A stretch of DNA of 64,000 bases from positions 7,511,103 through 7,575,102 of the forward strand of contig NC_034010.1 in assembly GCF_000346465.2 (NCBI RefSeq). The letters are read 5' to 3'. The DNA is from Prunus persica. Lineage: Eukaryota > Streptophyta > Magnoliopsida > Rosales > Rosaceae. The notes beneath the pieces are model-generated. The model saw only the letters and a list, made by a program, of their open reading frames with translations, did not search any database and was not told the origin of the DNA. The translations under genes were made by a program, and so were the position numbers. Positions 7,230-63,172 of the stretch are shown here, one piece after another. Position 1 is the stretch's first letter, and every line of letters starts with the position of its first letter.

Positions 7230-7234
7230 TATTC

Positions 7235-8829: not shown

Positions 8830-8832
8830 ATT

Positions 8833-8850
8833 TGGCACGCCCAGTGGAAC
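8833..8850 (+). other. Putative tRNA primer binding site
   Basis: TGGCACGCCCAGTGGAAC begins 3 bases after the 5' LTR end. TGG followed by a tRNA 3'-end complement is the expected layout. It is not the common initiator-Met site (TGGTATCAGAGC), and I cannot assign the tRNA without a search. Confidence 0.5.
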
Positions 8851-8928
8851 TTCTCAGTATACATACTCTGACAGAATCATTCACAGATTTATAAATACTG
8901 GAAGCTCTAGCCAGAACCCGCACCAGAT

Positions 8929-10772
8929 ATGGAGAGAAACAAGATGGCTCTCAGGGAAGGCCTCGAGTCAGAAGAAAGCGATGCTAGGCAATCAGCCCAC
9001 GGCAGTACAGGAAGTAGACGTTCCAGGACTGGCTCCAAAAGGATGAATCAAATACAGGAGTCAGTACTCCGACAAGAAATCACAGTACAAAGGAGCCAGG
9101 ACACTCTCAATAACATGACAGCCATGATGTAATGACAGGTTAACAGACAGTTCCGGAAGGACCGAGAATCCGCCATGGCCAGAATCCCAAACCCGGATGC
9201 TGTAGTCCAGCAGTTAGATCTCCCTTATGGCCTTCCGCCAGGACTAGCATGGCCATACCAGGAAAACCCCCTAGTTGCACAGATAGCTGGAGTACCGGAC
9301 CACAGAGAAATCCAGGCTGGTCCGAGGGAAGGAGCCCTTCCTAATGAAGAACACGAAGCCCCAGCCCGACCAGATGACCTTGCACTAGCTCAGCAGAACC
9401 AGCCAGAACCTCAGTCCATTCCACCTCATGTGGCCCCGCATGATCAACCTTTGGCACTTCTGCCTGAACCACCAGCAGTACCACCATATAGACCCAGAAG
9501 GATGGACCCTAATCCATTTCCTCCACCCGTAAGAGGGAGAAGAGGCAGAGGGGGGAATAACCTTTTTGCTAATCATGACAGGAATAGGCCGGGGGCAAAC
9601 TGGAGGAATCATTCAGAAGTCGAAAAGCAGGAAGAGCGCAGGGAGGAAGCTCCACCCAGACCATACAGAGCAGAGCCTAGGATCGATTACGTCCAGCCAG
9701 AACAGGGACAAAATCTTCCCCCCGTCAATGCTTTGAATGACATATGAGCATTGCAAAGAATGATCAGAGAAATCATGATCAAATATGAGGCTAGAAGAGG
9801 GGAGAGGCCTACTTACAGAAAGCCATACCCAGCCTATATCGATAGAGGGGAAAGTCTCCAGGTTTCAATGTACCAAACTTCACCTTGTTCAACGGGGAGG
9901 ACCCTCATGCTTCCTCAGTTGAACATATAGGCAGGTTCTCCGTCCAATGCATAGCTATTGAGAACAACCCTCTGTTGAAATTAAGGCTTTTCGGCAATTC
10001 TCTCTCTGGACAGGCTTTCACCTGGTACACCAGCTTGCCAGCTAATTCTGTTCAAACTTGGGAGCAGATGGAAAATGTCTTCCAGGACTACTATTATAGG
10101 ATTCAGCCAGAAGTCACCATCAGTGATCTAGCTGCCCTCAAGCAAAGTGAGGATGAACCGGCTCAAGATTTCATAACCAGGTTCAGAAAGCTCAAAATGA
10201 AGTGCCGAATCCTTATGGAAGAAAGACATTTCATCCAGATGGCCCAAGCTGCCTTTAAAATCTCTCTCAGGAAGAGGTTCGACGGAATGTTGTTCGGAGA
10301 CCTGGCAGAACTAGCTGATAAGGCATCCAAATATGAGGAGTTACTCAGGGAAGAACAGCAAAGGAGGAACTCCTCCAAAGGTACATACTACAAAGCCCCT
10401 TCTTCTTCAGTCCACCTGATCGAGGTGGAATCACAAGAAGATGCAGAAGAATCAGAAGAGAAAGAGGTTTCAGTGGCAGAAATGGCAAAACTAAAACATC
10501 CCATTAGTTGCAAAGCCCTTACAAAGCCACCTAAAGACCAAAGGCCACCACCATTCACAGGAGGATTCGTTCCCAACAAGCCAACGCAAAACAAGGTTTA
10601 CTCTTTTGATTTGACCAAGGTTGATGCTTTGTTCGATGAGATGCTACTGCAGAAGGCGATAGAAACGCTCACGGAATACCCAAGCCCGAAGAACTCAAGG
10701 GCAGACAGTACTGCAGGTGGCACAACTCTTGGAACCATTCTACCAATAGTTGTGTTGTTTTCAGGGACGTAA
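8929..10772 (+). pseudogene. gag: Gag of the Tat element, broken
   Basis: The ATG at 8929 follows the leader. The first 67 codons (coiled-coil-like, Arg/Ser/Gln rich) end at a TAA at 9130-9132. The frame then resumes from 9175 with a long Pro-rich acidic region and stops again at TGA 9745-9747. After a frameshift near 9860 the conserved capsid-like retrotransposon gag domain runs from 9885 to about 10380 (NVPNFTLFNGEDP start; GQAFTWYTSLP; AQDFITRFRKLKMKC), matching the Retrotrans_gag family. An acidic Glu/Ser linker follows, with a final stop at 10770. Gag forms the virus-like particle. At least two nonsense codons and one frameshift make this copy non-functional. Confidence 0.85.
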
Positions 10773-11845
10773 TACAAGAAGGGATAACGGCAGGAAGGTT
10801 GAAACTGGCAGAAAAACCTTCATCGGCCACGACAGATCCTTTCCCTCAACTACAAGTCAATATGGTCGATTTGAATTGGCCAGAATAGAGGGAAACTGAG
10901 CCAATGACAAACGCTGGTTGCAGCAGAGGCAGAAGAATCATAAGGGAAACCAGTCAAATACCAAGAACGACCATCTCGGCTGGGGTGGTGGTCTGTAGCA
11001 GGTGCAAATGTGAAACAGAGCTAGAGGTGGTTCTAGACAGACAAAATCAGCCCACACCTAGTGTCTTCGACAGGATTGGAACCTCATCCCGAGACAAAAC
11101 AAGGCAGAAGAGCTGTCTTAGGCCTACACAATACAGCGAAAGGAGGACGGAGCAACCCAGGAAGGAAATACCAGTCAAGACACCCGAAAATGAAAAGCCC
11201 TTGGCAACGATCATAGAGGGTAGATGGTACTCCGTAAGAAAAAGCGATAGACCAACTCTGGAGCTAACCAGAACTTAGAAAAGAAGAATCCAAAGGCAAT
11301 ACTACACATATCTCAAGAGCCAGGATAATACGCAAGTACGTCCAGAAACCAATTCTGCCAGGAAAGGAAAAAATCCTGAAACACTTCCCCAGACAGAACA
11401 GGAAGCTTGCCAGTCAAGGGAACTGCTAAAAACAGAACCGCCAGCCAGATCTCCTATCCATCTAGCCTCGTCATCCAGCAGTCGTCCCGACACCATACAA
11501 GCACCAAAGAAATCCGGGTCTACCCCGTTACAAGGAGAAGACGACTACACTGAGGAATATGAAGAAGAGCAATTGGACTACGAACCATCTGCAGATGATC
11601 GGAATGAGCCCCTCGGAGCTGTAGAGCAGGATGACTGGACGGAAGAATACGGGGAAGAACTAATGGAAATTGGTGAAGAATTGGACGCAGAAACATAAGC
11701 TTTTGGCGCAGAGTTGGAAGACCTGCTACAGGGTGATCTGGGAATTAACATGGTATTCATCCTACCAGGGAAATTCAGGGCCGCCGAGGGACAAGAAAGC
11801 ACTTTAGAATGAGATGTTTTCTCTCAAGAAAGCTTTGAATGTAGA
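10773..11845 (+). pseudogene. Degenerate gag C-terminus and gag-pro linker
   Basis: This stretch between the gag core and the protease has short broken frames (for example 10904-11278) rich in Lys, Arg, Glu and Pro, as expected of a nucleocapsid and linker region. A piece reading CSRCKCETE might be a ruined zinc knuckle, but it does not fit CX2CX4HX4C. No independent gene is visible. Confidence 0.45.
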
Positions 11846-12304
11846 TTGACAGAAGCAAAGGAGCCACCAGAACGGCAAGCAGACAACCCCAGGACAGGCG
11901 AAACAGCCAATAACCCAGCTATAGAGCAACTTTGTTTCTCCAAACCAACCAGAGAAATGGCAAATCACCTCAGGCCTTTGTTTATAACGGCAAATCTTGG
12001 AGGTATTCCTATTTCCAAGATCATGGTAGATGGAGGTGCAGCCATTAATCTATTGCCCCATAGAATGCTGACCAAAATGGGCAGAACAGAGAAGGATTTG
12101 ATTCCAACACGTTTAACCGTCACCAACTTCGCTGGGGGCATCACAAAAATTCATGGCATCTTAGACGTGGATGTCATAGTCGGAAGCAAAGAGTTGAAAA
12201 TAGCATTCTTTGTGATAGACACTACTTCCACCACCTACAATGCACTACTTGGCAGGGATTGGATTCACCAGAGCCTTTGTATTCCTTCCACCCTCCACCA
12301 GTAG
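11846..12304 (+). pseudogene. Retropepsin-like aspartic protease domain of the Tat element
   Basis: The active-site region reads IMVDGGAAINLLPHRML, the D-G-G variant of the D-S/T-G motif seen in this retrotransposon lineage. It is followed by the flap region and the C-terminal YNALLGRDWIHQ, which matches the conserved 'LGRDWIH' of Ty3/gypsy proteases. The protease would process the Gag-Pol polyprotein. The frame ends at TAG 12302-12304; the same frame then reads on at 12332-12550 before a shift into the RT frame near 12530. The 11846 ATG is internal to the ancestral polyprotein and is unlikely to be a true start. Confidence 0.8.
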
Positions 12305-12525
12305 TTAGCACTATGGAATGAAGAAGGCTGCATGGAGATTATAGAGGCCGATCCATGGCCATTCCTGCCCTCTGCCATGTGCTTTGAAGCAAGGTATTAT
12401 CATGATGACCTCGGTCCTTTCACTTTCCTTGGAGTCAACCAGAACGGCCGCCATCATGGTGTCACGGCCCAAAGACTCATTGAAGAAGGTTTAGCCAGTT
12501 CTCTAGAAGACTGGAATAGACCTTT

Positions 12526-13752
12526 TTGTGCAGAACTACCAGAACTCTGATGTTTAGTCTCAATCAACTGGACAAGGATCGAGCTGCAACAATCCGATCC
12601 ATCACAAAAAGATTGTTGATATACTGGGAAGAAAGGATGTTTTTCATACAGAATCCAGCCATCAATATGGCAGAATTCACCCATGAAAGCACAAAGGAAC
12701 AAAAGGAGGAAATTTTACAGAAGGAAGTATTAGATTTTGCACCAGCAGCACTGGATGACTCCTTGCCAGAAGTGGAGGATCCTTTACAGGAAATAAACTT
12801 AGGGACAGAAGAAGATCCAAGGCCTACTTTCATCAGCACGCTTTTGAAGGAACCACTCAAGACTGAACTCATGGCACTTTTGCAGGAGTTCAGAGATTGT
12901 TTTGCCTGACATTACCACGAGATGCCAGGATTGGACAGGCAGTTAGTGGAGCACAAGCTGCCAATTAAAGATGGCTACCTTCCAGTTAAACAGGCCAGAA
13001 GAAGAATGTCTATGGACACGGAACTAAAGGTCAAAGAAGAGATAGAAAGGCTGCTCAAGGCAAGATTCATCAGGCCAGCCGTCTATGCCGATTAGTTAGC
13101 AAATATTGTGCCTGTTCTCAAAAGAAAAACAGGGGCAGTTAGAATCTGCGTGGATTACAGAAATCTGAATGAGGCATCTCCCAAGGACGAATATCCTATG
13201 CCAATGGCAGACATGCTAGTGGATGGAGCTGCTCATAACCAGATGCTATCTTTCATGGACGGCAATGCAGGTTATAACCAGATTATGATGGCAGAACAAG
13301 ACATCCACAAGACAGCCTTCATGTGCCTTGGACATATAGGTGCTTTCGAATATACTGTAATGCCTTTCGATTTGAGAAATGCGGGGGCCACCTACCAAAG
13401 GGCAATGAATTCCATTTTTCATGATATAATAGGACATTCCTTGGAAGTATACATAGATGATGTGGTGATTAAATCCCCCGAGAAAGGAAACCACATAGCA
13501 AGTCTGAGAAAGGCATTCCTAAGAATGAGGCAGCACAAACTAAAAATGAACCCAAAAAAGTGTGTTTTTGGAGTCCAAGCAGGAAATTTCTTAGGATTCT
13601 TGGTTCACCAGAGAGGCATAGAGGTTGACAGAAATAAAGCAAAATCCATCATAAAAGCCCTACCACCTCGGAACAAGAAGGAACTTCAGAGTCTCCTAGG
13701 AAATATCAATTTTCTAAGAAGATTCATATCCAATTCTGCAGGAAAAATCTAA
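12526..13752 (+). pseudogene. Reverse transcriptase of the Tat element, with nonsense codons
   Basis: An acidic pro-RT linker (12526-12906) ends at TGA 12907-12909, where relatives have Trp. The RT domain then runs from about 12919, with a TAG at 13093-13095, again at a Trp position. Motifs visible: RICVDYRNLNEASPKD, FMDGNAGYNQI, AFEYTVMPFDLRNAGATYQR, the catalytic YIDDVVIKS box near 13450, and NPKKCVFGV...FLGFLV. These are the finger, palm and thumb landmarks of Ty3/gypsy RT. The frame stops at TAA 13750. It would copy the RNA genome into cDNA in the particle; two to three stops in one frame make it inactive. Confidence 0.9.
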
Positions 13753-14169
13753 CCTTTTTTCTTCCCTGTTAAGGCTGAAGCAGGAACAAACATTCAAGTG
13801 GGAAGAACAACACCAACAGGCTTTCCAGGAAATAAAGCATTACCTCTCAAATCCACCAGTTCTTTCCCCACCAAAAAGAGGCAGACCACTCAAGCTTTAT
13901 ATATCTGCATCAGAAGTATCCATTGGAAGTCTGCTAGTTCAAGATAACAAAGAAGGAAAGGAACAAGCAATCTACTATCTAAGCAGAACATTAACAGAGT
14001 GGAGAAAAGGTATTCCGCAATAGAAAGGCTTTGCCTGGCCTTATATTTCACTGCTGTAAAAAACAAACACTACATGCTGCCACACACTATCTACATCATT
14101 GCCAAGACAGACTTAATCAAATACATGCTAACAAGACCAATGCTGAGGGGCAGAATTGGGAAATAGACT
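13753..14169 (+). pseudogene. Classical RNase H domain remnant of the Tat element
   Basis: Shifted frames encode FKWEEQHQQAFQEIKHYL, then PPKRGRPLKLYISASEVSIG and a piece with AIYYLSRTL, matching the RT connection and RNase H start of Ty3/gypsy pol (consensus 'F.W...C..AF..LK..L...P.L..P..G..L.LY...S...V...L'). The rest (to about 14169) is scrambled by frameshifts and stops. At least two frame changes are needed to read through. Confidence 0.75.
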
Positions 14170-14970
14170 TTGGCTTTGACAGAATTCACCTTCAGGTATG
14201 TCCCCCAGAAAGCTGTTAAAGGGCAAGCTGTGGCAGACTTCCTAGCGGATCACCCAGGAGAGGAAATTGAAAACATGGACTCTTTGGACATAGCAAATGC
14301 AGATCTGCTAACTAGAGCTCATATTTGCCTTAACAATCCAATCTATTCGATTCATCTCACACCTTGGAAACTATATTTTGATGGATCAAAGACAGATAAG
14401 GCTTCAGGAGCCGGGATTGTTCTGGAAGAACCATTGGGGGTCAGACAATGCTATTCCTTCCAGTTAGATTTCCAGTGCTCCAACAACAGGGCCGAGTATG
14501 AAGCTTTGATTATACGGCTTGAGATGTTGGTAGAATTAGGAATTCAATCCGTGGAGATCTTGGGAGATTCCATGCTTGTCCTAAAATAGATTGCTGGAGA
14601 ATACAAGTGTCTAAATCCTTCTCTGGCTGTATATCTAGTAGCAGCTAGAAATCTGCTGACAGAATTTAGAGAAGCTACTTGGGAACACATCCCAAGGGAG
14701 GAAAACTTTGCAGCCAATGAACTGGCTCAGGTGGCATCAGGCATACAAATGCTCGAAGACTGCGTCCAAAGGATCATCAAGATAGGAAGGAAAAGTCTAC
14801 CATCTGTTTTGACTAGAGGGATGGAGATAGAAGTCAATTCTGCCTTAATCACTGAAGATGATTGGAGGGAGCCTATCATGACTTACTTAAGATATCCCAC
14901 TCTGCCCTCTAAGAAAAGAGTCAGAATCATGGCTACAAACTACCTCATGTGGAATGAAGATTTGGTCTGA
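14170..14970 (+). pseudogene. Archaeal-type RNase H (aRH) domain of the Tat element
   Basis: Core motifs: WKLYFDGSKTDKASGAGIV (first catalytic Asp in YFDGS), NNRAEYEALIIRLEML (catalytic Glu in AEYEAL) and VEILGDSMLVLK (catalytic Asp in GDS). This second RNase H, close to archaeal and plant RNase HI, is the signature of the Tat clade and lies between RH and integrase as expected. A TAG at 14587-14589 replaces the usual Gln after LVLK. The frame continues to the end of the domain and into the tether before a TGA at 14968-14970. Confidence 0.85.
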
Positions 14971-14985
14971 AAAAGTAAGGATGAG

Positions 14986-16154
14986 GTGCTATTAAGGTGC
15001 CTCGGGAAGGCAGAATACATGAAAGTCATGGGAGAAACCCATGAGGGGATCTGTGGAGCTCACCAAGGGGGAAGAAAGATGTGCTGGTTAATCAGAAGGT
15101 ATGGCTACTTCTGGCCAACCATGATGAAGGATTACATCAACTATTCCAAGGGATGTGAGGCCTGTCAAAGGCACGGCCCAATCCAGCAGGGTCCTTCGGT
15201 TCCCATGAATCCAGTAGTAAAACCATGGCCTTTTAAGGGATGGGCAATGGATCTCATTGGCAAGATCTATCCAGCCAGCAACCAGCAGCACTGTTTCATT
15301 ATTGTTGCCACAGACTACTTCACCAAGTGGGTAGAGGCCAAGCCAGTAAAAACCACAACATCTCAAGAGATCATCACCTTTATAGAAGAACAGATCATAC
15401 AAAGGTTTGGCATTCCAGAATCAATCACAACTAATAGGGGTTCTTCTTTCATATCTAGGGATATACTGGATATGGCAGAAACATTCAAATTCAAACTGCT
15501 TTAATCTACTCCTTACTATGCTCAAGCTAATGGACAGGCAGAATCAAGTAACAAGGTAATTATCAATATCATCAGAAAAATGCTGGAGAAAAACCCAAAG
15601 CAGTGGCATGAGCAGTTATCAGAGACTTTGTGGGCATACAGAACTTCAAAAAGAGAAGCAACTGGCATGACCCCTTATGCTCTAACCTACGGCCATGATG
15701 CAATTCTTCCCATGGAGATAGCAGTCCAGTCTTTTAGAATTGCTCACCAGCACGGTCTCACTGGGGAGGACTACTCTCAAGCCATGTTGCTGGAATTGGA
15801 AGAATTGGATGCAAGCAGGATTGACACCCTCAACAAACTCTTAGCAGGAAAACAGTGTCGAGGGCCTACAACAAAAGAGTTAGAAACAAGAGTTTTGAAG
15901 AGGGAGAGATAGTCTGGAAGGCAATTCTGCCCCTTGGAGCACACATAGCTGGATATGGGAAATGGTCACCTACATGGGAAGGCCCTTTTGTAATTAACCA
16001 GATCCTCGGAATGGGGGCATACAGGTTGCAGGACCGAGATGGAATTATTCATACTGCCCCAATCAATGGTAAATGGTTAAAGAAATTCTATCCAACCATG
16101 TGGGATTCGCAGGCTGTACAGACAGATCCCGGGATAGAAGAGGAACAAGACTGA
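14986..16154 (+). pseudogene. Integrase of the Tat element, with stops and a missing catalytic Asp
   Basis: The N-terminal HHCC zinc-binding part is recognisable (HEGICGAHQGG ... CEACQRHG, about 15040-15175). The catalytic core shows the first Asp in WAMDLIGKI. The second Asp is replaced by Asn (SITTNRGSSF; relatives have a DQG or DRG box). The Glu is in YYAQANGQAESSNK after a TAA at 15502-15504. The C-terminal part (15580-15912) is followed, after a frame shift near 15860, by the GPFVI and GAYRLQDRDG segment typical of non-chromodomain integrases. Integrase would insert the cDNA. One stop, one shift and the Asp loss make it inactive. Confidence 0.88.
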
Positions 16155-16353
16155 CCCTTTTTGTTTCTTGAAAAGAATTTTGTTTGGATCTATTTTTGCT
16201 TTAAAGTTTTTGTGTTTTTGCTTTCGAAACTGTGTCCGGTTATTGCATCAAAAGTAAATGAAAAGCAGTGAAATGCTATTTAAGGGCAACAAATGAACAA
16301 GCTTATATAAAAATAGCCACCCTCGCGGCAAATTATTCAAACAATGAAAGAAA

Positions 16354-17045
16354 CTAAAATCCTAGTTTCGTAAGGGTTTCTTGCAGGTTCGCCTTCTTGA
16401 CAGAAAGTTCTTTCTGGAGCAGCACCCCTTGGTGAATCGAAGCCTCTGCAACCATGCTTTGAACAAGAAAAGTAGCCTTGGTCTTAGAACTCAGTCCAGC
16501 CCCAAGCCTGCTCTGCACCTCCCTGCACTCTGCCAGCTGTTTTTGGAGCTCTTCGATTTGCTTCTCCAGCTTGTCTGCAGTAGCCTTGGCTTCTTTATAT
16601 CCTGCCACCATCTGGTCCAGTTCTGCTTTCTGCTTTGTAAATCAGCCAGGTTGGCTTCATGGGTGGCCTTGCAGAACTCAGAAGTCTTGAAGGTGGGCCT
16701 AAGATCCTCATAACGATCATGCAAATTGAGCACATCTCTGGCCAAGCTTAGGCCCATCTCAAGAATAGGCTTCGGAGCCATGTTCTGTCTGTGTAGCAGG
16801 TCCAAGTCCTTCATCAGCTGATCAAAGGCTTCCTTGTCTTGGTCAAACTCCAGCTCAGTGGACTGCCAGATTTTCAACCTCTCCATGGCCTCCTCCACTG
16901 CCCTAGATTTTGCCCTGCCTGGAGGAGAGCTGAGTTTCTCCAATCTATCCAATTGAGCATCCAGATCCATGGCTTCAAACTCTTCCAGTTCTGGATCAGC
17001 AAAAGAAGCCGTGGTAGATGATCCTGGAAAGGAATGAATATGCAT
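16354..17045 (-). pseudogene. Exon 7 of the antisense PMD gene: coiled-coil tail
   Basis: The exon begins after TTCTGCAG at 17046-17053 and codes for a helical, heptad-rich tail: LDAQLDRLEKL, then EFDQDKEAFDQLMKDLDLL, and after a one-base shift near 16630 the stretch KLEKQIEELQKQLAECREV, ending LTKLGF before the stop at 16354. Such a tail usually mediates oligomerisation. The shift divides the exon into two overlapping open frames (16491-17045 and 16354-16611). Confidence 0.72.
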
Positions 17046-17118
17046 CTGCAGAAGAAAGCATAAGTTAAGACCAAGCAGAAAGTGGAAAATAAGGGGCCTA
17101 AAAGTTATGAAAACTTAC

Positions 17119-18183
17119 AGCAACAATGGGAGGCTTCAGGGGACTGGTCACCGTTGCCAGGACGCCAACAACTTTAGGCACTTCTGCCTGGAAAGGCTAT
17201 AATAGTTAAAAAGGAAGAACAAGGCAGAATCGCAAGAAAATATGGATAGGTAGGGAGGAAAATTACCACAACCACAGGAACAACGGCATTTGTTTCCAAC
17301 TCAGCCTCCGGAACTACAACAGACAGTTCTGCCTGATCCACAGGCTCTGATGCAGACCGCTCCGCCTGATCCTCAGCCGCTGGAGCGGCAGTAGAGTGCT
17401 CTGCCTCGGCATCCTCAAATAAGGCCAGTTCTGAGCTAGTCAGCTCAGCCCTTGGACCCCCTTGTTACTTCTGCGCCAAGGCAACGCTCTCTGCAATCAC
17501 CTCAGCAGGGATCTCCTCCTACAAAACAGGGATCAGAACAGAAGGAATGGGGCAAGAGGGGAACTGATACAAATCACAGAAATAAAACTCACCTCTCCTT
17601 CCACCACTGCCGCTTTTTCCTGGGGCACTCCTTCCAACTCTTCCAGCTCTTTTTCCTGCTCCACCTCTTCAAAAGCCTCTCGCAGCTCTTCATCCGTCCC
17701 AGAAGTAGTGGTAGGGACTGCTACGGTTTCTTCTGTGGCAATGTACTCCACTTCACTCCTCCTTTTAAATTTTTTCAACTTAGTAGGAGGAGGGGAAGGA
17801 CTTTCAGCTAGACAGAACAAAAAGCAAAGATTAGGAAAAAGAAGGCAAGTCAGAATAAAATTGAAAGGAATAGCTGGAACATCACGAGCTTACCTGAAAT
17901 GCCAGGCCGCGTGGTATTGTCCGGAGGAGGGGCAGGTCCTTTTCTTTTTCTTCTGCCAGAAAGAGCGGCCTCAGCAGGAGTTTGTTCTACCTGGACCTCA
18001 TCTTCTTCATCTGCAGAAGGAAGCTCCAAGTCCCCAGCGGCAATAATAGAAGAGACTGCACCAAGGAGTTAGAGATTAGAAACCAATCCAGCTGGAAAAG
18101 ACAGAAGAAAATTAAAAAGGAAAACTTACCGATCACTTCTCCAGCCTGAACAGATTGCCCACCTACGTTGGTCAGAGAAGGAT
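17119..18183 (-). pseudogene. Exons 2-6 of the antisense PMD gene: charged linker
   Basis: Five short exons with GT...AG borders: 18183-18130, 18055-17894, 17807-17593, 17518-17267 and 17196-17119. They encode a low-complexity linker: an acidic patch (LPSADEEDEVQVEQ), a basic nuclear-signal-like patch (SGRRKRKGPAPPP), a second basic patch (KLKKFKRRSE) and a long Glu-rich run (EELREAFEEVEQEKELEEL). Exon 5 contains TAA at 17465-17467 where the sequence otherwise reads on. Two Lys/Arg clusters suggest a nuclear protein. Open frames on the opposite strand here (17452-18046) are shadows. Confidence 0.7.
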
Positions 18184-18257
18184 CTGATATAGGCAGAACA
18201 GACATTAGAAATCGATCATCAAGACAGAACAAATCCCAGACAGAATCAGAAATCTAC

Positions 18258-19893
18258 CTTCTATGATTTGTGCATTAATGTCTTTGATAGTCTGGACCAT
18301 GTGCGTCTTGGCATCCCCATCCGCAAAAATGGCCCAGTTTTCCCAACCATCAAAAAGCACCTTGAGGGCAGTGACAGAAGCAGGCAGACCTTGGAATCTG
18401 GCTTTCCACCAGGCGTCAAAATCAGCGGAACTGCAGGAATTCGAGCTGTTGTTGATTTTGTTCACTGCACACCGGGCATCCTTGTGCACCTCCAAATCAT
18501 CTGCATCCCTCCAAGAGGAGGCCCGGTTACAACTCCGATATGATTTCAGCGGAATGAGCTGAGGACAGCCAAGCTGCCTTGCACAGAAGTTGGGATGATA
18601 GACTTATGCCCCCAGATGATAATTTGGAGGTTTGCCCCCACCGTGGGGCAGATCTCTGGGCAGAGTAATGCTCAGAAATTTCTTCCTGAAGTCTGTTCTG
18701 GCAGCCTCATCTTCTAGCTCCTTCTCGAACAACCGAAATCCGGTCTGGAACCAAGGATAGGTCCTTCTGATCACCACTTGCCACTGAGCTGCCGACCTCT
18801 TTGTACAATGCCTGAAGAGCATCAAGTACTCCTCAACAGAACGCTTGGGCACTTCTGCCGATATCAGAGGAAGGGCCAGGAATTGGTCTTCAGGCAGAAC
18901 TATGTCTGAGAACCTTAGCTCTGGAAAATAGACCTGCAGCCAGATCTGGATCATCCAGAATGCGCTAGGGGCCGACAGGTTCAGTGGATTCTCCAGGGTG
19001 GCAGTGTGCAGATTCTTGTAAAGGTGAGCCAGAACTGATGGCCCAAGCCCCACATCAGTGTGATTGTGAAGCGCTTCTGCCAGATGTCTGTACTCAAGCA
19101 GAACTGCCGAAGACCGATTGGGGAAAACGAACCAGTTCAGCCAATACAAAAGGAACAACATGTGTTGCTGATCCTTGTCCTTCTCAGCGCTAAATTTCTT
19201 CAGATAATTGGAGAAGGAGCAGTTCTGGTTGATCGTGGCTTGAGAGATAGTAAAGGGAATGGCCACTTTTTCTTGATTTTTCCGCCTGTGATAATCTCCA
19301 ACAGCATCAACAGGCCTGCCATAGGGCCTGAACCCAAAGATTTGGGCCATATCCAGCAGGGTTGGCGCCATAGGACCCACACGGAAATCAAACGTGTTAC
19401 TGGCAGAATTCCAGAAGCACAAAGCAGCGGCAAGCAGGTTCTCATCTCTGTTAATCGACTGCTTGGACAGGAGAATGGCATCATAAATCTCGGCTCTCCT
19501 CCAGTGACCCCCATACCTCGGGAGAAGTCTGTCAATCCAGCCTGCCCATTTGACCGGACTGTTCCTCACCTCGCTGGACGTGAAAGACCGGCTCAAATTC
19601 TTGCTAACCCAAGAATAAGAAGCCAGGGCAGAAGTACTCTCAAAGCACAAAGGAGCCTCGGCATCCTTTTTCAGCAATTCTGCCACCTCAACCAGGACAG
19701 AGCCAAACCAGTGAGGCCCTAGCACCAGGGTGTTCTCGAACAAATGAAGGACGTTCTCGTCCAGATTCTTTTGGGCAAAGGGATGAAGCTTGCCCCTGAC
19801 TTCTATCGCATGAGCATCAATCCCGGTCCCAGTAATGTAATCAGGAGGAACTGGAGCTGAAGAAGACTGAGCACGAGACCTTGGGGAAGACAT
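18258..19893 (-). pseudogene. Exon 1 of the antisense gene: plant mobile domain
   Basis: The ATG at 19893 starts a Ser/Arg/Pro-rich N-terminus. The PMD fold follows: SWVSKNLSRSF, then the WAGWIDRLLPRYGGHWR region, a helix with EIYDAILLSKQSINRD, and FDFRVGPMAPTLLDMAQIFG, which corresponds to the conserved 'F.F..GEM.PTL.D...L.GLR..G.PV' block of PMD proteins. Next come LLYWLNWFVFPNRS, ALHNHTDVGLGPSVLAHLY and QIWLQVYFPEL, all characteristic. The open frame is 429 codons to TAA 18604-18606. The same frame continues without a further stop (VYHPNFCARQLGCPQLIP, then WWKARFQGLP) to a GT donor at 18257. The stop therefore looks like a single nonsense mutation within one exon and not the real end. Confidence 0.85.
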
Positions 19894-20226
19894 TTCTGAT
19901 TCGAGGGAAGAAGCAGAGAGAAAGTGAAAGAAAAGGGAGGTCTGAAGGAAACAATGGAAATCCCGAAGAAAAGCTCGGAAGAACGGAGTCAGAAGGGCTA
20001 GGTTTTCAGAAGCGGTGGATTTGAATTTCTTTTAAAAGAGAAGCTCGAAAATGTGGGAAGAAGAAGATGGGACGGCACCTGATGATTATTAGCTAGTAAC
20101 TAGCTAATAACTAGCCGTTTTCCCACGAACTCTAGTTCGTGGTAGGCGGACGTGGCAGACGACTGGCGCGCAAATTAATGGCAAAAGCATTAAGTCTGAA
20201 ACCATTCCAATTCCAAAACGATTCAG

Positions 20227-20239
20227 ACTTAGGGGGCAT
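20227..20239 (+). other. Polypurine tract of the Tat element
   Basis: CTTAGGGGGCAT immediately precedes the 3' LTR start at 20240, the position where plus-strand DNA synthesis is primed. It is short and ends CAT, so the exact primer limits are uncertain. Confidence 0.6.
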
Positions 20240-21836
20240 TGTTTAGGCCTAAATTTGGCACGCCAAAGTTCAAAAGACAGGCCCATAGTGAAATTACCTG
20301 CCTAGCCCAAAAAGCTTGAGGGTAACAAAATTAGGATCCAGACAGGTTGGGTTTCAGGCTAGGATGTCAAAAACAAAAAAAGGGGACCCGAGAAGGACCA
20401 ACGTGGAAACCGTCATTTGGGCTTCAAGGATCAGCCCATAAATTTTGTTGGGTTCAAACCCAAGGGAATTAAAAACACACCCACATGATTGCCTCAGCTT
20501 TGAAAAGTCAGCAAATTCAACTAAGTTAAAAATATGAGAGGGACATCTCTGAAACACTGCCAGCAGAAGATCAAAACCCATCTGTGATCGGAGATTTTGC
20601 TCCAAAAAAGTAATACACCATCTTCCAAGGAATTCCCGGGTCACGCTATCTAAATTAGAACGGGAAACAGGGAGTTGTTCAGAAAATACAAAAGAAAAAC
20701 CAACCGCCATAAAAAGCCCACACAGACGGTGGCGTTGGTTGAAATAGAAAGCTGCCACCCAGGAAACCAGGGAAGGGACTGCTTTAGGAGGTGACTACTG
20801 AGAGCCTATCTGCCTTGATTGATAAAAATCCCTTTTACTTTACATTATAGGAGATCTTTTTGCCGCCCATTATTTAAATTTAAAACCACCTCCCCAAGAG
20901 GGTCTCTTATAAAAACAGAAGTAGGCAAGGAAGGAACGGACAGTCAATTCATCAATCAATCAAAAAAACAAACAACAAGAAAACAACCAAAAGCTCACTT
21001 GGATTCCAAGAGAAACCAGCTTTAGATCAGAATTTCAAAGTTCAGACTTAGAAAATAAGTATTCTAAAAACGAGATCTCTCTCGTTACAAATTTAGTTCA
21101 GCAAAAGCTAAGGCAAGCAGAGTTCGAGTTTTCACAAACGTGGAGACCTCAACGAACTTATGAAGAGTCCTGCTCAAGCAGAACAACGCTCGTAGTGCAA
21201 CCCCTAGCCTACCAAACCCTCGAGAATAGCCACTTCTGCCCCCTTCAAACTGAAGAAGCTGCAGTTCTGCCCACTAAAAGGCCTCACGAAGCGTGAAGTA
21301 AACATAAAGCTCTGCCAAAATCGAACTTTGGTATCGATTTATAGCTCAGCCTAGCATCTGAAGTCACGAAGCAGTACGGACCAACCCAGGTGCGTCCAGT
21401 CCAGCCCAAGCCAGAGCTTTCTATCCAAGCAGAAACGGAGTTCCGGCCGTCTTTTAACCTTCCTAGCGTCGATATGCATATTTATTGTTTTGTAAAAGGC
21501 AATTCTGTTTAAAACAGCCCAACTTCTATCGAATATTTCTGGCCAGAACAGCCGTTTGATACTGAGATAAATTATGAAAGTCCCCACCAGTCTGAGTCAA
21601 GAAAAGAACTTACTTGGGAGATATTCCTCACCCAAATTCACAATCATTTGTTTTAGAAGTCAGTAACTTGGGGCGCAAGTTATCCACTCTAAAAAGAAGT
21701 CTGCTAGGATTTACATTGCCAGCAGTAGCACGCTCACACACCAAAGAAAGCTGACTTGTCGACCAACAAATGGTCTCCAAGCTAGTGGGGAACTTCGCCC
21801 TTCCATCTCAGGAGTAAACGCGAAAACGGGTGAACA
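20240..21836 (+). repeat. 3' LTR of the Tat element
   Basis: The LTR begins TGTTTAGGCC and ends GTGAACA, retaining the canonical TG...CA ends. It is 1597 bp and about 98% identical by eye to the 5' LTR. TATA box at 20908-20915. The flank TATTC (21837-21841) repeats 7230-7234. The antisense open frame 20354-20758 mirrors the one in the 5' LTR. Confidence 0.92.
20908..20915 (+). promoter_or_regulatory. Probable TATA box in the 3' LTR
   Basis: TATAAAAA at the position equivalent to 7903-7910 of the 5' LTR. From here transcription could run out into segment A. Confidence 0.45.
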
Positions 21837-21841
21837 TATTC

Positions 21842-22100: not shown

Positions 22101-22201
22101 CATGGAAACTGTCACTCTTCAACTCTAATTTCAAATCTTCTTTTTTCTTTTTCTTTTTTTTTCTCTTTTCAAAATTACCTGAAATTTTGTGCCATTACTC
22201 T

Positions 22202-22643
22202 TGTTGATGCCCAAAATCGGAGGACATCTTAGGTGGAAGAAGTGTCAAGTGTTCAGCATAACAAGAGGGTTGTGGACCTTCGGCAAGGAGAGATCCCACG
22301 AAAGAAATAGGGAGGAAGCAATCATCAAGTTTCGGATACCACTGTGGTACCTACCGAAGGCTCTCCGATACGTAAGTCAACAAGAGTAGGTTATGTAGTA
22401 ATTTTAGTAAAGTAACAGTAAAGGTGAAAAGTAATTACCTTTTTTACTTGGGCACTATTCCTCTTTTATAGAGAATTGAAAGTGAGAGTTTACACAAAGT
22501 TTTGACGTGGAACTTTGTCCAAATCGTTGTAGTGGTGATGCGTGTCCATGGTTCTAGGCTCTGTAACTGAGAGCTTCGGCAGGTTTCGGGTCTATCTTCG
22601 TGCTGGTCCTTTAGTGCCAAATGTGCTTAGTATGGTATAAACA
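22202..22643 (+). repeat. LTR-like repeat, about 440 bp
   Basis: The block begins TGTTGATGCCCAAAATC and ends ATGGTATAAACA, with a TTTTATAGAGAATTG promoter-like stretch near 22471. The TG...CA ends and layout suggest a solo LTR, but I see no clear 5-bp target duplication. Copies: 51811-52252 and, 5'-truncated, 44423-44757. Class not assigned. Confidence 0.4.
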
Positions 22644-22986
22644 ATAGTCCCTCAACTTTTGCGATCAAGAAGTGGCTTTTGGGTTGGATAATCAAATCGA
22701 GTATTTTTGGTCTAGCAAGCGCCGTAGGGCGTTCCCCAATCCCCCAAGTTTGCAAGCTAGAAGTTGCGTCGACCATGGGGGTAACTTGGTGAAGCTGTTG
22801 AGTTGGCGTTTGTTGGGTAGGCGAACAAGCGATCCACAGTAGACTAGTTAGTGGCACATCTAAGTCTTTAATAGAACAAAGTACTTCTACATATGGGCTA
22901 GCACAATGTTGGAATTCTATTCGGCAAATAAAAAGTTTTGCATCATGCAAAAGCTGCTCCAATATAGCTAGCTTAGAGCTTCGCAA
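22627..22986 (-). other. Unassigned open frame conserved in three segment copies
   Basis: A 119-codon minus-strand frame recurs at 44762-45100 and 52236-52595 with nearly the same translation (LLHDAKLFICRIEFQHCAS; LDVPLTSLLWIA). It overlaps the end of the LTR-like repeat. Conservation may only reflect recent duplication. I recognise no domain, and it may be non-coding. Confidence 0.2.
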
Positions 22987-23388
22987 GCGCTGCCCTCACA
23001 GTTGAGGAGCCACAATTTTGATTGACCTATCACAATATTATTATTCACCATGCTCCCTACTCAGTAAAGCATCTTAAAACCTGCAAATAACAATAGAATT
23101 TTAGAAACATTTCAAATTCCTATTTGGGAGTGCTGTATGAGCATTATATAAAAATAAAAAAACATTAATTCAGATATGAATAAACCAAGTATACCATTCC
23201 TTTGAATTGCAAATAGAGAAGGAAACATATCCTGCAATGACATTATCTTAAAAAAGGAATTCTATGAAACCAAAAAACAAAAACAAAAGTATATTAAGAA
23301 AAGACAATAGGGCAAGGGAAAGGGTTTTCAGGGCAAGAAAAGATTTTGGCATACAAGCAGACAAGGAAAAATTTCAATAGAAGCAAAC
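22987..23388. other. No gene seen; intron-like stretch
   Basis: AT-rich sequence between the unassigned frame and the exon-like piece, conserved in all three segments and without motifs that I recognise. It may be the intron following the exon at 23389-23570. Confidence 0.3.
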
Positions 23389-23570
23389 CTTCCCACATTC
23401 AGATCTTAGCTTTGTATCAATGTTCATGCCCATTTTACTCTTGTAAGCAGCAACTAATCGTCTTATGTGTGCTTCTTTAGCAGCTTTTTCTTCAGCTGTT
23501 ACTAGCACTTCCCCCGGGCGTATAACTCTTCCACCACCAAACTGAACATCGATCACATTTTCAATCCCCT
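23389..23570 (-). pseudogene. Exon-like host gene fragment next to the Harbinger element (A)
   Basis: On the minus strand this reads an open stretch with VQFGGGRVIRPGEVLV, then AEEKAAKEAHIRRLVAAYK and MGMNID, ending GAATGTGGGAAG|GTTTGC, a good splice donor. The helical, charged character and the donor suggest a true exon of a host protein captured next to the transposon. Copies lie at 45502-45680 and 52999-53180; the B copy has one extra codon. I do not recognise the gene. No upstream exon is visible because the Harbinger element starts 8 bases away. Confidence 0.45.
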
Positions 23571-24184
23571 TCCCTTAAGACCATCTCCAACCCAAAGGGT
23601 GGAAACTCAAATTTTGAGTTTAGCCTCCAAAAAACTTCTCCAACCCATGTATTTTGGGAGGTGAAAATTTGAGATGACTCAAAACTGGACTGGAATTCCA
23701 GTCAGAATTCTGCCTAGACTGATAAACTTGTGGCGCCTAAATCTGCTTTAATATATATATTTTTTTTTTGAATGCTAGGAGAAGCCCACGTGATGGGCTA
23801 TGTTGCTGGCCCGCTTTGACAAGTGGGAATGAAGATTCCCTTTCCTTTATTGAGAAGCAATGACTACTTTTTCAAATGTTTTGTTATGCTGTTTAAAAAT
23901 ATATATATATTCCAACAGCTATAAAATCAACGATTCTGATTCATTTTAAGCAATCTCAACAGTAAAATTTCATATCCGACAGCTCAAATTTAAATCCAAT
24001 GGTCAAATTAATATTTATAATTAATCTAAGTCAAATTAATATTTATAATTAATCTAAGTCAGATCCAACCCCAAAACTTAATCCAAACTCTATAAATAGC
24101 CATTCATTTGGTAAATAATCCACCAAAATCATTTTTTTCCTCCCTTTATTACAATTTTTCATTCTACATTCATTATTGTTGAGA

Positions 24185-25072
24185 ATGGCCCCAAAACCCC
24201 AAAGAAGTGTGAATTGGAAACCACAAGAAAATGAGGCATTGTGTAGAGGGTGGGTTTCTGTCTTTGAAGATGGGGCTATTGGCACGAATCAATCAAACGA
24301 TTCATTTTGGTTGCGTGTGTACCAAAAATTTTTGGAAAATGATTCGGGCATGAGCGGAGCCGGGGTACGATCACCGCAAGCTATTGCTTCTCCGTTCAAG
24401 ATCATCAACCAACAATGTTCTCTTTGGAAGGCATGTATAACAAAGGCCAATGCAAGGCATGTGAGTGGCTCCAATCTTGAAGATGTGGCGAGTACCCATT
24501 TTTTTCAATGCTTAAATTTATAATTTTAATTGTTTTCAATTATTAACTTGATTTTTTTTTAATTTCATGAGTAGGATATGAATGCAAAAACACTTTTCTT
24601 GAATGATAATAAACCTCTAAATAGGCCTTTCAAGTTGTATCATGCTTGGCAAATCTTAAAAGATTGCCCAAAATGGAACGACCTATGTGAATCTCCCACA
24701 CAAACATTCAAAGATTCTTCTCATAGTGGCAATACAGTCAACTTGGAGGAAGATGAAGATGATGTGGTCATGCCCACTCCAAGGCCATTGGGAAGAGATA
24801 AACAGAAGGATGAAAAAAAGAAAGGGAAATGTGTTGAAAGTTGTCTCAACCAAAGTGGTAAGTTCTTGTCTGAATTGATTCAACAAGGAAATGAGGCAAA
24901 AGAGGATAGGCGGCGAAAGTTAGAGCTCCTACAAGAGCAACATGCATATCAAATCCAACAAGATAAGGAGGCCAATGAACGAAGGATAATGTCCATGGAC
25001 CTATCCAAATTTACTCCAAGAAAGAAGAAGTATTGGGGAATAAGCAAGACGAAATTATTGAGGCCCAGATGA
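24185..25072 (+). pseudogene. Harbinger ORF1 (Myb/SANT-like), copy A
   Basis: Exon 1 is 24185-24487 and exon 2 starts at 24575 after a TTTCATGAGTAG acceptor. The protein begins MAPKPQRSVNWKPQENEALC, a Myb/SANT-like trihelix start with WKP..EALCRGWVSV, and continues with NDSFWLRVYQKF and IINQQCSLWKACI. Exon 2 carries the Lys/Glu-rich region and an 'NAM-associated' C-terminal helix (KLELLQEQHAYQIQQDKEAN). In PIF/Harbinger elements this protein binds DNA and helps bring the transposase into the nucleus. The donor is GC (GTG|GCGAGT) where copy B has GT. A missing G at 25037-25040 shifts the frame, so the last 25 or so residues are lost and the frame ends at 25072. Confidence 0.8.
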
Positions 25073-25278
25073 ATACAAGTTCCCCCTACAATCCAGAAGA
25101 CAACTCTGGAGACTATTATCCAAGCCCTCCACATAGTGGTTATTAATTTACGATTATTTGTAATTGTTGTTTATCTCTATTTATAATTGTCATTTATCTT
25201 TATTTCTAATTGTTGTTTAGCTTTATTTTTAATTATCGTTTATCTTTCTTTGTAATTGTTGTTTATCTTTATATATAA

Positions 25279-25565
25279 CTAGCCTCTCTACACGCGCTTC
25301 CGCGCATGCGAGAGGTTTTTTTTTAAAAAAATTTAAAATTATTTTAGAATTAAAAAAGATAATGGATATTTGTGTTCCATAAAAATAGGACCCATTATCT
25401 GAATTTTCTTTTAATTTTAATTTTTTTAAAACGAAAAATTATGAATTTACCATATTATCCTCATTTAATTAATAATTTCAATTCTTAATGTTTGCATTAA
25501 CCAAGGGCATTTTCTGGTATTTTGAATGTTTCACCATTCTCTGCCTTTTGCTTTATATATATAGA
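25279..25565 (-). mobile_element. Non-autonomous Helitron, 287 bp
   Basis: On the minus strand it starts TCTATATATATAAAGC and ends with a GC-rich hairpin (CCTCTCGCATGCGC / GCGCGTGTAGAGAGG) directly followed by CTAG, the Helitron 3' signature (CTRR). It sits exactly between A and T, with no target duplication. Copies B and C have the uninterrupted site (54883-54895 and 47361-47373, 'tatataattatcg'). The size and the lack of a coding region make it non-autonomous. Confidence 0.88.
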
Positions 25566-25958
25566 TTATCGGTATCTTTTTTTATTTTATTTTATGATTG
25601 TTGTTTATTTTTCTATGATTAGTTTTTTTAATTATAAATTCAATGATAAACCATATAATTCATTAAAATCACACAACCACTTTTATAATTTATACACACT
25701 TTCATAATTTAAACACACAGCATAATTTAAACACGCTTATATAATTTAAACACACTTACATAATTTAAACACACAACATAGCTCATTGCCCCTCTCCTTC
25801 GCATCTCCAAATGTGGTTGATCAAATCATTTCTTAGATTGTGACGCACTTGTGAAGCACGAACTCTATTATGATGGACCATGTAGTCTGAGATAGTTTGT
25901 CTATCTCAGTTTATATCGTACGTGATAGTTGGAGTCTTGGTCTTGCTCTTCTAGATGT

Positions 25959-27112
25959 TCATGGACAATTGTCTTCATCATCAGATTCTGCATCTAGATC
26001 CTCATACTCATCCTCAACAATCATGTTGTGCAATATTATGCACGTCATCATGATTGAATGAAGTTGTTCTTTGCGCCACATACATGCAGGTCCCCTAACA
26101 ATTGCCCATTGAGCCTGAAGTATTCCGAAGGCTCTTTCGACATCCTTCCTATAAGCCTCTTGTTTTTGGGCAAATAGTCTTTTTTTTTGGAGTATCCGGT
26201 TGGGAAATCATCTTAACCAATGTAGCCCAACGAGGGTAGATACCATCAGCCAAGTAATAACCCAGATTATATTCATTTCCATTGACAGCATATTGGATAT
26301 GGGGAGACACTCCATTCACTACATCATTGAACAACGGGGAACGAGCTAGAATGTTTATATCGTTGTTCGATCTGGCAATGCCAAAAAAGGCATGCCATAT
26401 CCAAGTGTCATATGAGGCCATTTCTTCTAGAACGACAGTTGGCTTATGCTTGTAGCCAGTAAACTGGCCTGCCCAAGTAGTGGGGCAGTTCTTCCATTCC
26501 CAATGCATGCAGTCAAGACTGCTTAACATGCCTGGGAATCCTCTGCGACTAGCCTTGTGTAAGAGCCTGTAAAGATCGGCCGAATTTGGGGAATGGAGGT
26601 ACCACTGACCATACACAGCTTCAATAACAGAATAAAACTTTCGCAAACATTCAAGGGATGTAGATTCACAAATCTACAGTACTAAGCGGTTGAGTCTGCC
26701 GAGCATCCATATGCGAGCATTCGAAAAATAGCTGTTAGCTTCTGCTCTGGGGATAGACTTTGTCGTCCACAAGCGTCTATCTTCTGGGTAAAGTATGGCT
26801 CATGTGCAACAACATCATTCAAGATGCGATAGAAAAGCTCTCTTCTCATGCTGAACCGCCTGCGAAAGTCCACTGAGGGATAAAGTGGCTTTCACAGAAG
26901 TAGTCCTCCATGAGACTCTTATGATGTTTTTCTCTCTTCTGATTCTTGTATTCACGGCCTGCAACAGAACCACCATGTTTGGATTGTTGAGCATATTGCT
27001 CCAGCAAAAATGTATGGTGTTGAATAGCCATTGCAATCCTCTGTTGATGAAGGTCATCATCATCAGAATCATCATTGAAGAAATTTTGTATAGCCTTCCC
27101 ACGTGAATTCAT
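25959..27112 (-). pseudogene. Harbinger DDE transposase, copy A
   Basis: The ATG at 27112 opens with MNSRGKAIQNFF and an acidic patch. An N-terminal helical region with MRRELFYRILNDVVAHEPYF and LSPEQKLTAIFRMLAYG is typical of plant Harbinger transposases. The DDE_Tnp_4 nuclease follows: SLDCMHWEWKNCPTTWAGQ (first Asp), RSNNDINILARSP (second Asp), YYLADGIYPRW, and RKDVERAFGILQ (Glu) with ILHNMIVEDEYED at the end. A frameshift near 26665-26690 divides the N-terminal and catalytic parts and occurs in all three copies. An extra T-run base near 26186 shifts the frame again in this copy only. The product would cut and paste the element at TTA/TAA sites. Confidence 0.85.
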
Positions 27113-27975
27113 TGTAAGAAGGAGAATTGAAGCAGATCTTGTGGTCAATTTAGTAGAATAACACTTCTTAAATAGACAAGAGAATGAGATGACCTACATG
27201 TTTGAAAATAATTGAATGAAGATAGGAAAAGATAGAGAAAGATAAGGGAATCCAATAAAGTGAGATGAACAAAGATGAGCAATGGTTCATAACGTGATTG
27301 AAACAAGACAAGATGGGAAATGGTTCAAAAAATAATTGAATGAAGATAGGAAAAGATAGGGAAAGATAAGGAAATCCAATAAAGTAAGATGAACAAAGTT
27401 GAGCAATGGTTCAGAACATGATTGAAACAAGATAATAGGGGATGGGAAAGAGTTCAGAAAATTATTGAAGAACATAAGTGGAGGTGGGCAAAAGTTCAAA
27501 ACATTTTTGAATGAGAATAAAGGAATCCAATGAAGTAAAAGTAAAAGTAAAAATGGAAGAAAATTATGGCAATGGCTTCAATGAAGGGTTTGAATTATTC
27601 TGGGCATACGTATGGTGTTGTACTTGTTTTTATTTTTAAGTGAAATTCTATTACATTTTGGAATTTTAATTTTTTTAGGTTAAAATGTTTAGAAAATTAA
27701 ATCACGAGTATTGAAACAAAAATAATGTCAAGAAAAATTAACAAGAAAAAAAAATTAGGGGCTAATCATTCTTAAACAATTTAATAAAGTTGCAGACTCA
27801 AATTATGAGTCTGCAAGGTTGGAGGAAAAAAAATTTTGAGTCCTGAAAATACATGTATAGTTGTATTTTGGAGGGTGAAAATTTGAGTATAGCTGTATCA
27901 CTATCGCAGTAATATTTCCAATTAAAAAATTTCACTCTATAAATGGTCATCTCACAGTACAAAGTTTATTATAAT

Positions 27976-30555: not shown

Positions 30556-30798
30556 ATAGCGAATCCATTTACAGTACCAACCAATGCAAAGTTCAATGAG
30601 ATAAACCAATTGTCTTGTTGCCATCAGGTCAGATAAATAACATCAATCTATGGTCAAATTAGTTCATGAAAGAATTTTGGACCTGTTTCTTCAAAAGTTT
30701 TAAACACCAAACAGTAACTAGAATACACACTACCAGTGGAAACTTGAAACATGATCAAACAAAATATAAGTGAACATCTTCCTACATGATATGTACTA

Positions 30799-31975: not shown

Positions 31976-32033
31976 TATTTACTATGAACAACGCATCTGC
32001 TACTTCCGGAATCAACTGAGGAATGCACATAAA

Positions 32034-32582
32034 ATGGCCCCTATCTCTATGAAACCCTCAGTTTCCCCCAAAATCCCTACCATGGCCCTAGCTTCCAGTG
32101 TTCGCCTTTCTTCCTCCATCCTCCGCTACCGCCTCGCTGCCCCACTCTACCCGACCCGATTTTCCAGTCTCCGTACCTGTCGGAGCTCCGCTTCCTGTCC
32201 GCATCGTCCTCCCGTCCCGGGACCCACATCCGCCCAATCAAAGCGAGGCTCCAGGACGACCCCCAAAAGGAGGACCCAGGCGAGGGGCAGAACGGGAATG
32301 GAAGTGTGCTGGTCAAGGACACAAGTGAGAACAGCGAAGAAAGAATCGTTCGTGTTGAGCTCCACAAGTAGGCCACTGAAGCGTACATGGCTATGTCTGT
32401 CCTGCTCGGCCGCGCCCTGCTGGATGTTCGCGACGGTTTGAAGCGGGTGCACCGTCGTATTTACTAAGGTTGAATGGTGAATGATGTGGGAGCACTACCT
32501 GGCTGGATTTACTAGGTTGATGAAAACAGCGACAGCGACTCTACGTAGATTTTCTTTGCGATTAGCCTTGAAGCCCTGACAG
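32034..32582 (+). pseudogene. Organellar DNA gyrase subunit A-like pseudogene, first exon (segment A)
   Basis: The ATG at 32034 leads a Ser/Arg-rich, transit-peptide-like N-terminus (LASSVRLSSSILRYRLAAP). After a frameshift come IRPIKARLQDD, SENSEERIVRVELHK, a TAG, then [20 protein letters not shown] and [11 protein letters not shown], the very conserved GyrA N-terminus ([26 protein letters not shown]) with two residues missing and Pro replaced. A stop follows and the rest to the GTGAGC donor at 32583 is scrambled. GyrA is the breakage-rejoining subunit of the chloroplast/mitochondrial gyrase. The catalytic tyrosine exon is not recognisable. The same fragment is repeated at 63173-63721. Confidence 0.8.
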
Positions 32583-32695
32583 GTGAGCCCGAATCTCGAT
32601 TTTTGTTTTGATTTGGATGCCTGCCTGCTTGAATTGTACACTCACTGGAAACTCAAGTGTCTTTGGTAGTAGTAATTGCTTTTTCTGAAATGCAG

Positions 32696-51708: not shown

Positions 51709-51810
51709 CATGGAAACTGTCACTCTTCAGCTCTAATTTCAAATCTTCTTTTTTCTTTTTCCTTTTTTTTTCTCTTTTCAAAATTACCTGAAATTTTGTG
51801 CCATTACTCT

Positions 51811-63087: not shown

Positions 63088-63172
63088 TATGGTCACGACT
63101 AAAGTAAATAACCCTATTTACTATGAACAACGCATCTGCTACTTCCGGAATCAACTGAGGAATGCACATAAA

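Follow-up and report, generated by a model that had tools for sequence, protein, structure and literature searches.

What does a gene with introns do inside a retrotransposon? The question was raised by a 64,000-nucleotide stretch of the peach genome (Prunus persica; contig NC_034010.1), here called the window. In it, a 14.6-kb long terminal repeat (LTR) retrotransposon of the Tat lineage of Ty3/gypsy (7235–21836) carries, on the strand opposite to gag-pol, a plant mobile domain (PMD) gene of seven exons (16354–19893). We consider it probable that this is an accessory protein-coding gene of the element, which is likely of the Ogre type, and that it has its own antisense promoter, is spliced by the host and specifies a nuclear protein. 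The element seems to need this protein, because its copies keep both the splice sites and the protein sequence.

Structure of the antisense gene

The gene runs on the minus strand from an ATG at 19893 to a TAG at 16354. Exon 1 (18258–19893) encodes the PMD, and matched PF10536 with an E value of 3.9e-36 (125 bits; curated cut-off 34.9). The related proteins P0002, P0003 and P0005 scored 130–139 bits. Exon 2 (18130–18183) is 54 nt long. An acidic stretch and a first basic patch are encoded by exon 3 (17894–18055), and a second basic patch by exon 4 (17593–17807); the patches were retained in P0002 and P0003. Exons 5 (17267–17518) and 6 (17119–17187) are followed by exon 7 (16354–17045), which encodes a conserved helical tail, rich in leucine and charged residues, that may form a coiled coil. 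For the PMD, a lone PDB sequence match (E=0.65) was taken as chance.

The six introns (intron 1, 18184–18257; intron 2, 18056–18129; intron 3, 17808–17893; intron 4, 17519–17592; intron 5, 17188–17266; intron 6, 17046–17118) were all GT-AG, each 73–86 nt long, with phases 1, 1, 1, 0, 0 and 0. They contained 36–42% G+C and 46–50% T; the exons contained 49–57% G+C. The initial annotation, made from the sequence alone, had predicted an antisense PMD gene of seven exons with GT/AG borders and consistent phase, and this was borne out. The PMD and the two basic patches that it had proposed also stood, and the coiled-coil tail fared less well.

The gene is broken in this copy. Stop codons were present at 18604–18606 (exon 1) and 17465–17467 (exon 5), a frameshift near 16626–16641 (exon 7), and small in-frame gaps relative to related sequences.

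The joined protein, with X at the first stop and ended at the end of exon 4, was used as a query for related proteins. This gave 132 proteins at E≤0.001, and among the 120 listed nearly all were from Prunus. P0002 (P. armeniaca, 1048 aa, from a cluster of 40) and P0003 (P. brigantina, 1038 aa) were intact over the whole gene, with all six junctions as in the window model. Six other Prunus models were compared, and several of them skipped or misread whole exons near the same borders.

Aligned back to the window with tblastn, P0003 produced one block for every exon, with exon 7 in two blocks. P0002 produced blocks for six of the seven exons, and none for the short exon 2. Most block ends fell no more than 7 codons from the predicted borders, and two in the rapidly changing linker stopped 11–13 codons short.

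Relatives in Malus were 36% identical over 71% of the query. Close to where intron 1 lies, the Malus model P0114 contained an extra stretch resembling a retained intron. This hints, as far as two gene models can tell, that intron 1 may predate the split between Prunus and Malus. Several almond proteins of the family (e.g. P0012 and P0018) were named 'autoinhibited Ca2+-ATPase 11', apparently a spread annotation error. None of 74 pattern matches in IMG/VR was confirmed as a relative.

Recurrence and splice-site conservation among copies

A PMD search of the peach genome gave at least 120 matches. Approached from integrase, a PMD domain was present 3.8–4.1 kb downstream, on the opposite strand, in 36 of the 40 integrase matches listed. 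One of the other four had exon 7 and the exon 4/intron 4 site, and another had the exon 4/intron 4 site only. No trace of the PMD gene was seen at the last two of the 40, one of which lay on a small contig.

Two sets of copies were read. The first was taken in order of PMD score. Sixteen of the first 20 copies fetched could be aligned with the window along almost all of the 8 kb. The other four (L013, L023, L025 and L027) were truncated or rearranged and were excluded from the alignment for rearrangements or gaps. Pol was found upstream in the sense orientation in 19 of these 20; L013 had only the very end of pol. The second set consisted of eight copies chosen by integrase. The ATG was kept in 16 of 17 sequences of the first set and in 8 of 9 of the second, the window being counted in both.

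The splice sites were strongly conserved. Without the window, GT-AG was present in 94 of 96 introns of the 16 copies and in 47 of 48 introns of the eight further copies, or 141 of 144 over all 24, and the intron bodies drifted. Counted by intron, with the window now included in the first set, introns 1, 2, 3 and 5 had GT-AG in 17/17 sequences and in 8/8 of the further copies, intron 4 in 15/17 and 8/8, and intron 6 in 17/17 and 7/8. Other dinucleotides within the introns were on average 71% conserved in the 16 copies. None of 20000 random draws of 12 such dinucleotides equalled the splice-site total.

A 32-base probe across the border of exon 4 and intron 4 found 56 sites in the genome with at most 3 mismatches, and all 56 had the GT, as judged by eye. 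Probes for the spliced joins of exons 4 and 5, 6 and 7, and 1 and 2 found no site in the genome; these covered three of the six joins with the letters of the window and at most 3 mismatches, with an unspliced control for exon 4 only, and diverged processed copies may escape them. Each of the 24 copies read had the introns, and the probes revealed no processed copy. The proposal of the initial annotation that the element copies the gene unspliced was upheld by these counts.

Selection on the protein

The ratio of nonsynonymous to synonymous divergence (dN/dS) was calculated by the pairwise Nei-Gojobori method for the 17 sequences of the first set, including the window. It was 0.09 for exon 1 (bootstrap 0.08–0.12), 0.06 for the PMD core, 0.22 for the linker and 0.06 for the tail. 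The pol pieces of the same copies gave 0.07 (reverse transcriptase), 0.08 (second RNase H, aRH) and 0.06 (integrase). The protein is thus under purifying selection, with a constraint comparable to that of pol at its two ends and a weaker one in between. The comparison with gag-pol that had been proposed was answered for these pol pieces, with 0.06–0.09 for the PMD and tail and 0.06–0.08 for pol; gag lay outside it.

Variants common to at least two copies gave a dN/dS of 0.04–0.08 in the PMD and tail and 0.25 in the linker, and singletons gave 0.33–0.52 overall and 0.33–0.42 in the PMD and tail. This is the pattern to be expected from selection on active copies and decay of dead ones. In the eight integrase-chosen copies with the window, the ratios were 0.14 for exon 1, 0.13 for the core, 0.32 for the linker and 0.12 for the tail.

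Constraint had been suggested on other grounds, namely that fewer lesions in the PMD gene than in gag-pol reflected longer or more recent constraint. The dN/dS supported constraint; the lesion counts did not. Three PMD lesions against an assumed 12–17 in 7 kb of gag-pol gave P=0.28–0.10. Over the 17 sequences, 14 stops were found in 17281 codon cells of the PMD gene and 14 in 13047 of pol (Fisher P=0.45), a slightly uneven comparison in which the pol codons omitted three stop places of the window and the PMD gene kept its two. There was no deficit of stops in the integrase-chosen copies either (14 in 9131 cells of the PMD gene). Lesion density was rejected as a sign of constraint, the difference not being significant.

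In the same copies, dS was higher in the PMD gene (0.33–0.43) than in pol (0.20–0.25), and four-fold sites differed likewise (0.21 versus 0.13); recombination is one possibility. The introns at first seemed oddly less diverged than the nearby exon dS. The gap was small at four-fold sites (0.170 in introns versus 0.211; outside CpG, 0.156 versus 0.177), and the point was dropped.

A conserved block upstream of the gene

Between the start codon and the 3' LTR, a non-coding block at 20044–20193 showed 0.097 differences per site among copies. The corresponding values were 0.17 in the intron bodies, 0.18 in the spacer between pol and the PMD gene, 0.20 in the LTR part, and 0.22 just downstream of the block, on the side of the 5' untranslated region. 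We regard the block as a candidate promoter of the antisense gene, on the minus strand. No clear TATA box was seen in it by eye. Its closeness to the LTR border makes a part in reverse transcription possible as well. An inverted repeat at 20123–20142 was considered as a protein site and rejected; its left arm varied among copies, and it had no second occurrence in the window.

Other PMD loci

At three further peach loci (L029–L031), a PMD frame lay antisense to a pol-like frame and converged on it. The pol-like frames of L029 and L031 matched the integrase part of P0075, and that of L030 was judged by eye; L030 and L031 were close relatives of each other. The PMD frame of L029 was uninterrupted, which suggests that splicing is a property of some families and not of all.

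A tree built from 15 PMD cores placed the window family together with Malus and other Prunus proteins in one group (100/100), separate from L029–L031 and from the genic-type PMDs of peach and Rosa. The genic-type set consisted of Rosa P0146 and four peach loci labelled genic by their score and tandem place. The window family did not group with genic PMD-C (MAIN/MAIL), but was split from the genic-type set (100/100) in this tree, which was rooted only at its midpoint and contained long branches. In a mixed-profile protein search for MAIN/MAIL1, only Rosa P0146 among 32 proteins looked genic. Four strong PMD matches within about 14 kb at C4:13078349-13092441 (L001–L004) are probably a tandem genic PMD group.

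The host element and its surroundings

The 5' LTR (7235–8829) and the 3' LTR (20240–21836) differed by 32 substitutions in 1594 aligned bases (98.0% identity, distance 0.0204). With substitution rates of 7e-9 to 1.3e-8 per site and year, the insertion would be about 0.8–1.5 million years old. The sequence TATTC is duplicated at 7230–7234 and 21837–21841. The paired LTRs and this duplication on both sides confirmed the bounds given in the initial annotation.

Between the LTRs, on the plus strand, were pieces of gag (9846–10769; Retrotrans_gag, PF03732, E=4e-13), aspartic protease (11813–12301; PF13975, E=1e-4, under its curated cut-off) and reverse transcriptase (13096–13749; PF00078, E=1e-23). 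The first RNase H was in two frames (13718–14163; PF17919, E=5e-18; PF17917, E=4e-6), and the aRH (14167–14967; PF13456) had a stop at 14587–14589. Integrase and the end of pol (14971–16154) were traced by PF17921, PF00665, a match to P0075 and open reading frames (ORFs), with a stop at 15502–15504 and a frameshift near 15850. Gag-pol was heavily damaged, with about 10 in-frame stops and about 7 frame changes, as counted by reading ORFs without an intact polyprotein as reference.

An aRH lying between the first RNase H and integrase is the arrangement of the Tat subclades Ogre and Retand (PMC6317226), and this confirmed the Tat assignment. Ogre elements are marked by a PMD extra ORF, reported in 57% of them (PMC6317226), a precedent that the initial annotation did not mention; by gag-protease and reverse transcriptase ORFs split by an intron; and by the type of tRNA primer. 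The PMD was present, and the damage to gag-pol prevents judging the intron. TRP28 (PF04195), the mark of Retand, gave no match in the scanned pieces of the window or in P0002 or P0003. The element is most likely Ogre-type within Tat. Its PMD gene falls in the class of antisense extra ORFs designated aORF-3R or eORF-3'R, lying antisense between pol and the 3' LTR in most copies.

The internal part of L021–L028 was 84–93% alike to the window copy, but their LTRs only about 75%. Because the internal parts align well and the LTRs diverge, exchange of LTRs between subfamilies is suggested.

Outside the element, 22101–64000 contained a segmental tandem duplication of about 29–31 kb with a nested 7.5-kb repeat. 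The segments 22101–25278 and 25556–31941 matched 51709–54888 and 54880–61270 at about 99%, and 31942–32861 equalled 63081–64000. The duplication carries a NAM-associated frame (24575–25069) and a transposase frame (26152–26673; Plant_tran, PF04827), which we take to be PIF/Harbinger-like.

Discussion

In the scheme that we propose, transcription would start from the conserved block near the 3' LTR, and the transcript would be spliced by the host and then translated. In the predicted protein, a PMD is followed by an acidic linker that bears two basic patches, and then by a conserved helical tail. It might enter the nucleus by means of the basic patches, associate with itself through the tail, and act on host chromatin or transcription. 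The introns, being antisense to the genomic RNA, would not be removed in retrotransposition, and the gene would multiply with them.

For the action itself, we tentatively suggest that the protein uses the partners of host MAIN/MAIL1 on chromatin or transcription, so that the element may escape or tune silencing. MAIN and MAIL1 are host PMD proteins with a role in silencing. Ikeda et al. proposed that the PMDs which MULE elements have captured may serve against silencing (PMC5418596). In a bolder and rather unlikely form of this proposal, an antisense PMD gene with its own promoter would be standard in Tat/Ogre elements and would intercept MAIN/MAIL1-PP7L silencing; the kept introns would yield a normal spliced mRNA, escaping small-RNA pathways directed against intronless transcripts of transposable elements.

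Several observations weigh against an accessory gene of this kind. The PMD frame of L029 is 981 codons long without interruption, and introns are therefore unnecessary for such a gene. The gene models of the relatives may have been built with protein similarity. The set in which the PMD gene was compared with pol was taken in PMD score order, which favours an intact PMD, and dN/dS of the PMD gene was higher (0.12–0.14) in the integrase-chosen set, with the PMD gene alone measured there. By the same rule that defined the basic patches, P0130, a distant Prunus relative, had none. The signals for a coiled coil were weak; a leucine-zipper match in P0002 was under its cut-off, and a crude heptad count scored a PMD stretch of P0002 as high as the tail. 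Two AlphaFold models of the PMD were poor (mean pLDDT 41 and 50). A Foldseek search with the second model returned 36 matches at E≤10, of which none reached E≤0.001. Partners shared with host PMDs are a guess, because the PMD core of P0002 was only 26–33% identical to five genic-type PMDs. Moreover, dN/dS cannot separate an anti-silencing role from one in replication.

A role in replication is the main rival, and is a real possibility without being the expected one. Like retroviral accessory proteins, the protein would bring the integration complex into the nucleus or tether it, or would directly control LTR transcription. In favour of such a role are the constraint, equal to that of integrase and reverse transcriptase in the same copies, and the basic patches; for other antisense ORFs, too, reviews favour a comparable function (PMC7264820, PMC11963269). 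On the other hand, nothing in the data ties the protein to integrase or the LTR, and copies with the gene in common diverge strongly in their LTRs (mean difference 0.20; some about 75% identical to the window).

It is improbable that the antisense transcript acts as RNA, pairing with genomic RNA and feeding small RNAs that tame the element. The layout is convergent, the two stop codons lying about 200 bp apart, and PMD genes yield 21-nt phased small interfering RNAs in tea (PMC10673657). However, a dN/dS of 0.06–0.09 and the kept splice sites indicate selection on protein; a role as RNA alone would not favour synonymous changes, and as the sole role it is largely refuted.

That the gene is a captured fragment of a host gene, a passenger without function, is scarcely credible. 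In its favour, the peach genome also contains genic-type PMD loci, and LTR elements are known to be capable of transduction (PMC7264820). The dN/dS far under 1, the recurrence in several Prunus species and Malus, the fixed place in 36 of the 40 integrase matches listed, and the three other peach loci where a PMD frame lies antisense to a pol-like one all argue against it. Finally, two stops and a frameshift in the window copy might suggest exons read into decaying sequence, but the exon-by-exon tblastn matches and the splice-site conservation refute such an artefact.

An accessory protein-coding gene, our preferred interpretation, has several known counterparts. Extra ORFs with a plant mobile domain were reportedly described in Tat/Ogre elements by Steinbauerova 2011, known to us from citations. 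PMDs in Gypsy and Ogre elements, and antisense extra ORFs in Tat elements (PMC7264820, PMC11963269), were already known. The PMD is the most frequent extra domain in Gypsy elements (in 10 species, or 40 without the filter; PMC9289625), and clades PMD-A1/A2 are encoded only by Gypsy retrotransposons, unlike PMD-B and PMD-C (PMC5418596).

Closest are the extra ORFs outside gag-pol in Tat/Ogre elements (Neumann 2019, PMC6317226), which share lineage and domain with the window gene. The window gene is spliced, whereas no introns of extra ORFs are described in the available passages of that paper; its single getorf ORFs of at least 250 codons would leave exons 2–7 and the tail unjoined. The PMD-A1/A2 proteins (Ikeda 2017, PMC5418596) are likewise Gypsy-encoded, with orientation and splicing absent from the passages at hand. 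The TRP28 genes of Retand (PMC11963269) and gene23 of maize Grande (PMC7264820) are also antisense between pol and the 3' LTR and are proposed regulators, some with Smc-like domains; the gene23 product is nuclear and the gene has its own promoter (PMC7264820). Their N-terminal domain differs from the PMD, and the word intron is absent from both main texts (PMC11963269, PMC7264820). Host MAIN, MAIL1, MAIL2 and MAIL3 (PMD-C; PMC7156037) have the PMD in common with the window family, which differs in falling outside the genic-type group and in the lack of any phosphatase domain found in P0002 or P0003. The literature searches turned up no description of a spliced antisense PMD gene, of its constrained tail or of a conserved block upstream; splicing may stand in Steinbauerova 2011 or in the Grande gene23 paper.

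A review describes what antisense extra ORFs do in plant LTR retrotransposons as an open question, and asks that antisense and spliced transcripts be looked for (PMC7264820). The present family offers a clean case, in a crop whose RNA data ought to be publicly available, of a defined seven-exon gene with constraint on the order of pol and a candidate promoter. It also carries a warning that surveys of single ORFs shorten such proteins. Finally, it bears on whether MAIN/MAIL1 descend from retrotransposon genes or the reverse, which Ikeda et al. left open (PMC5418596).

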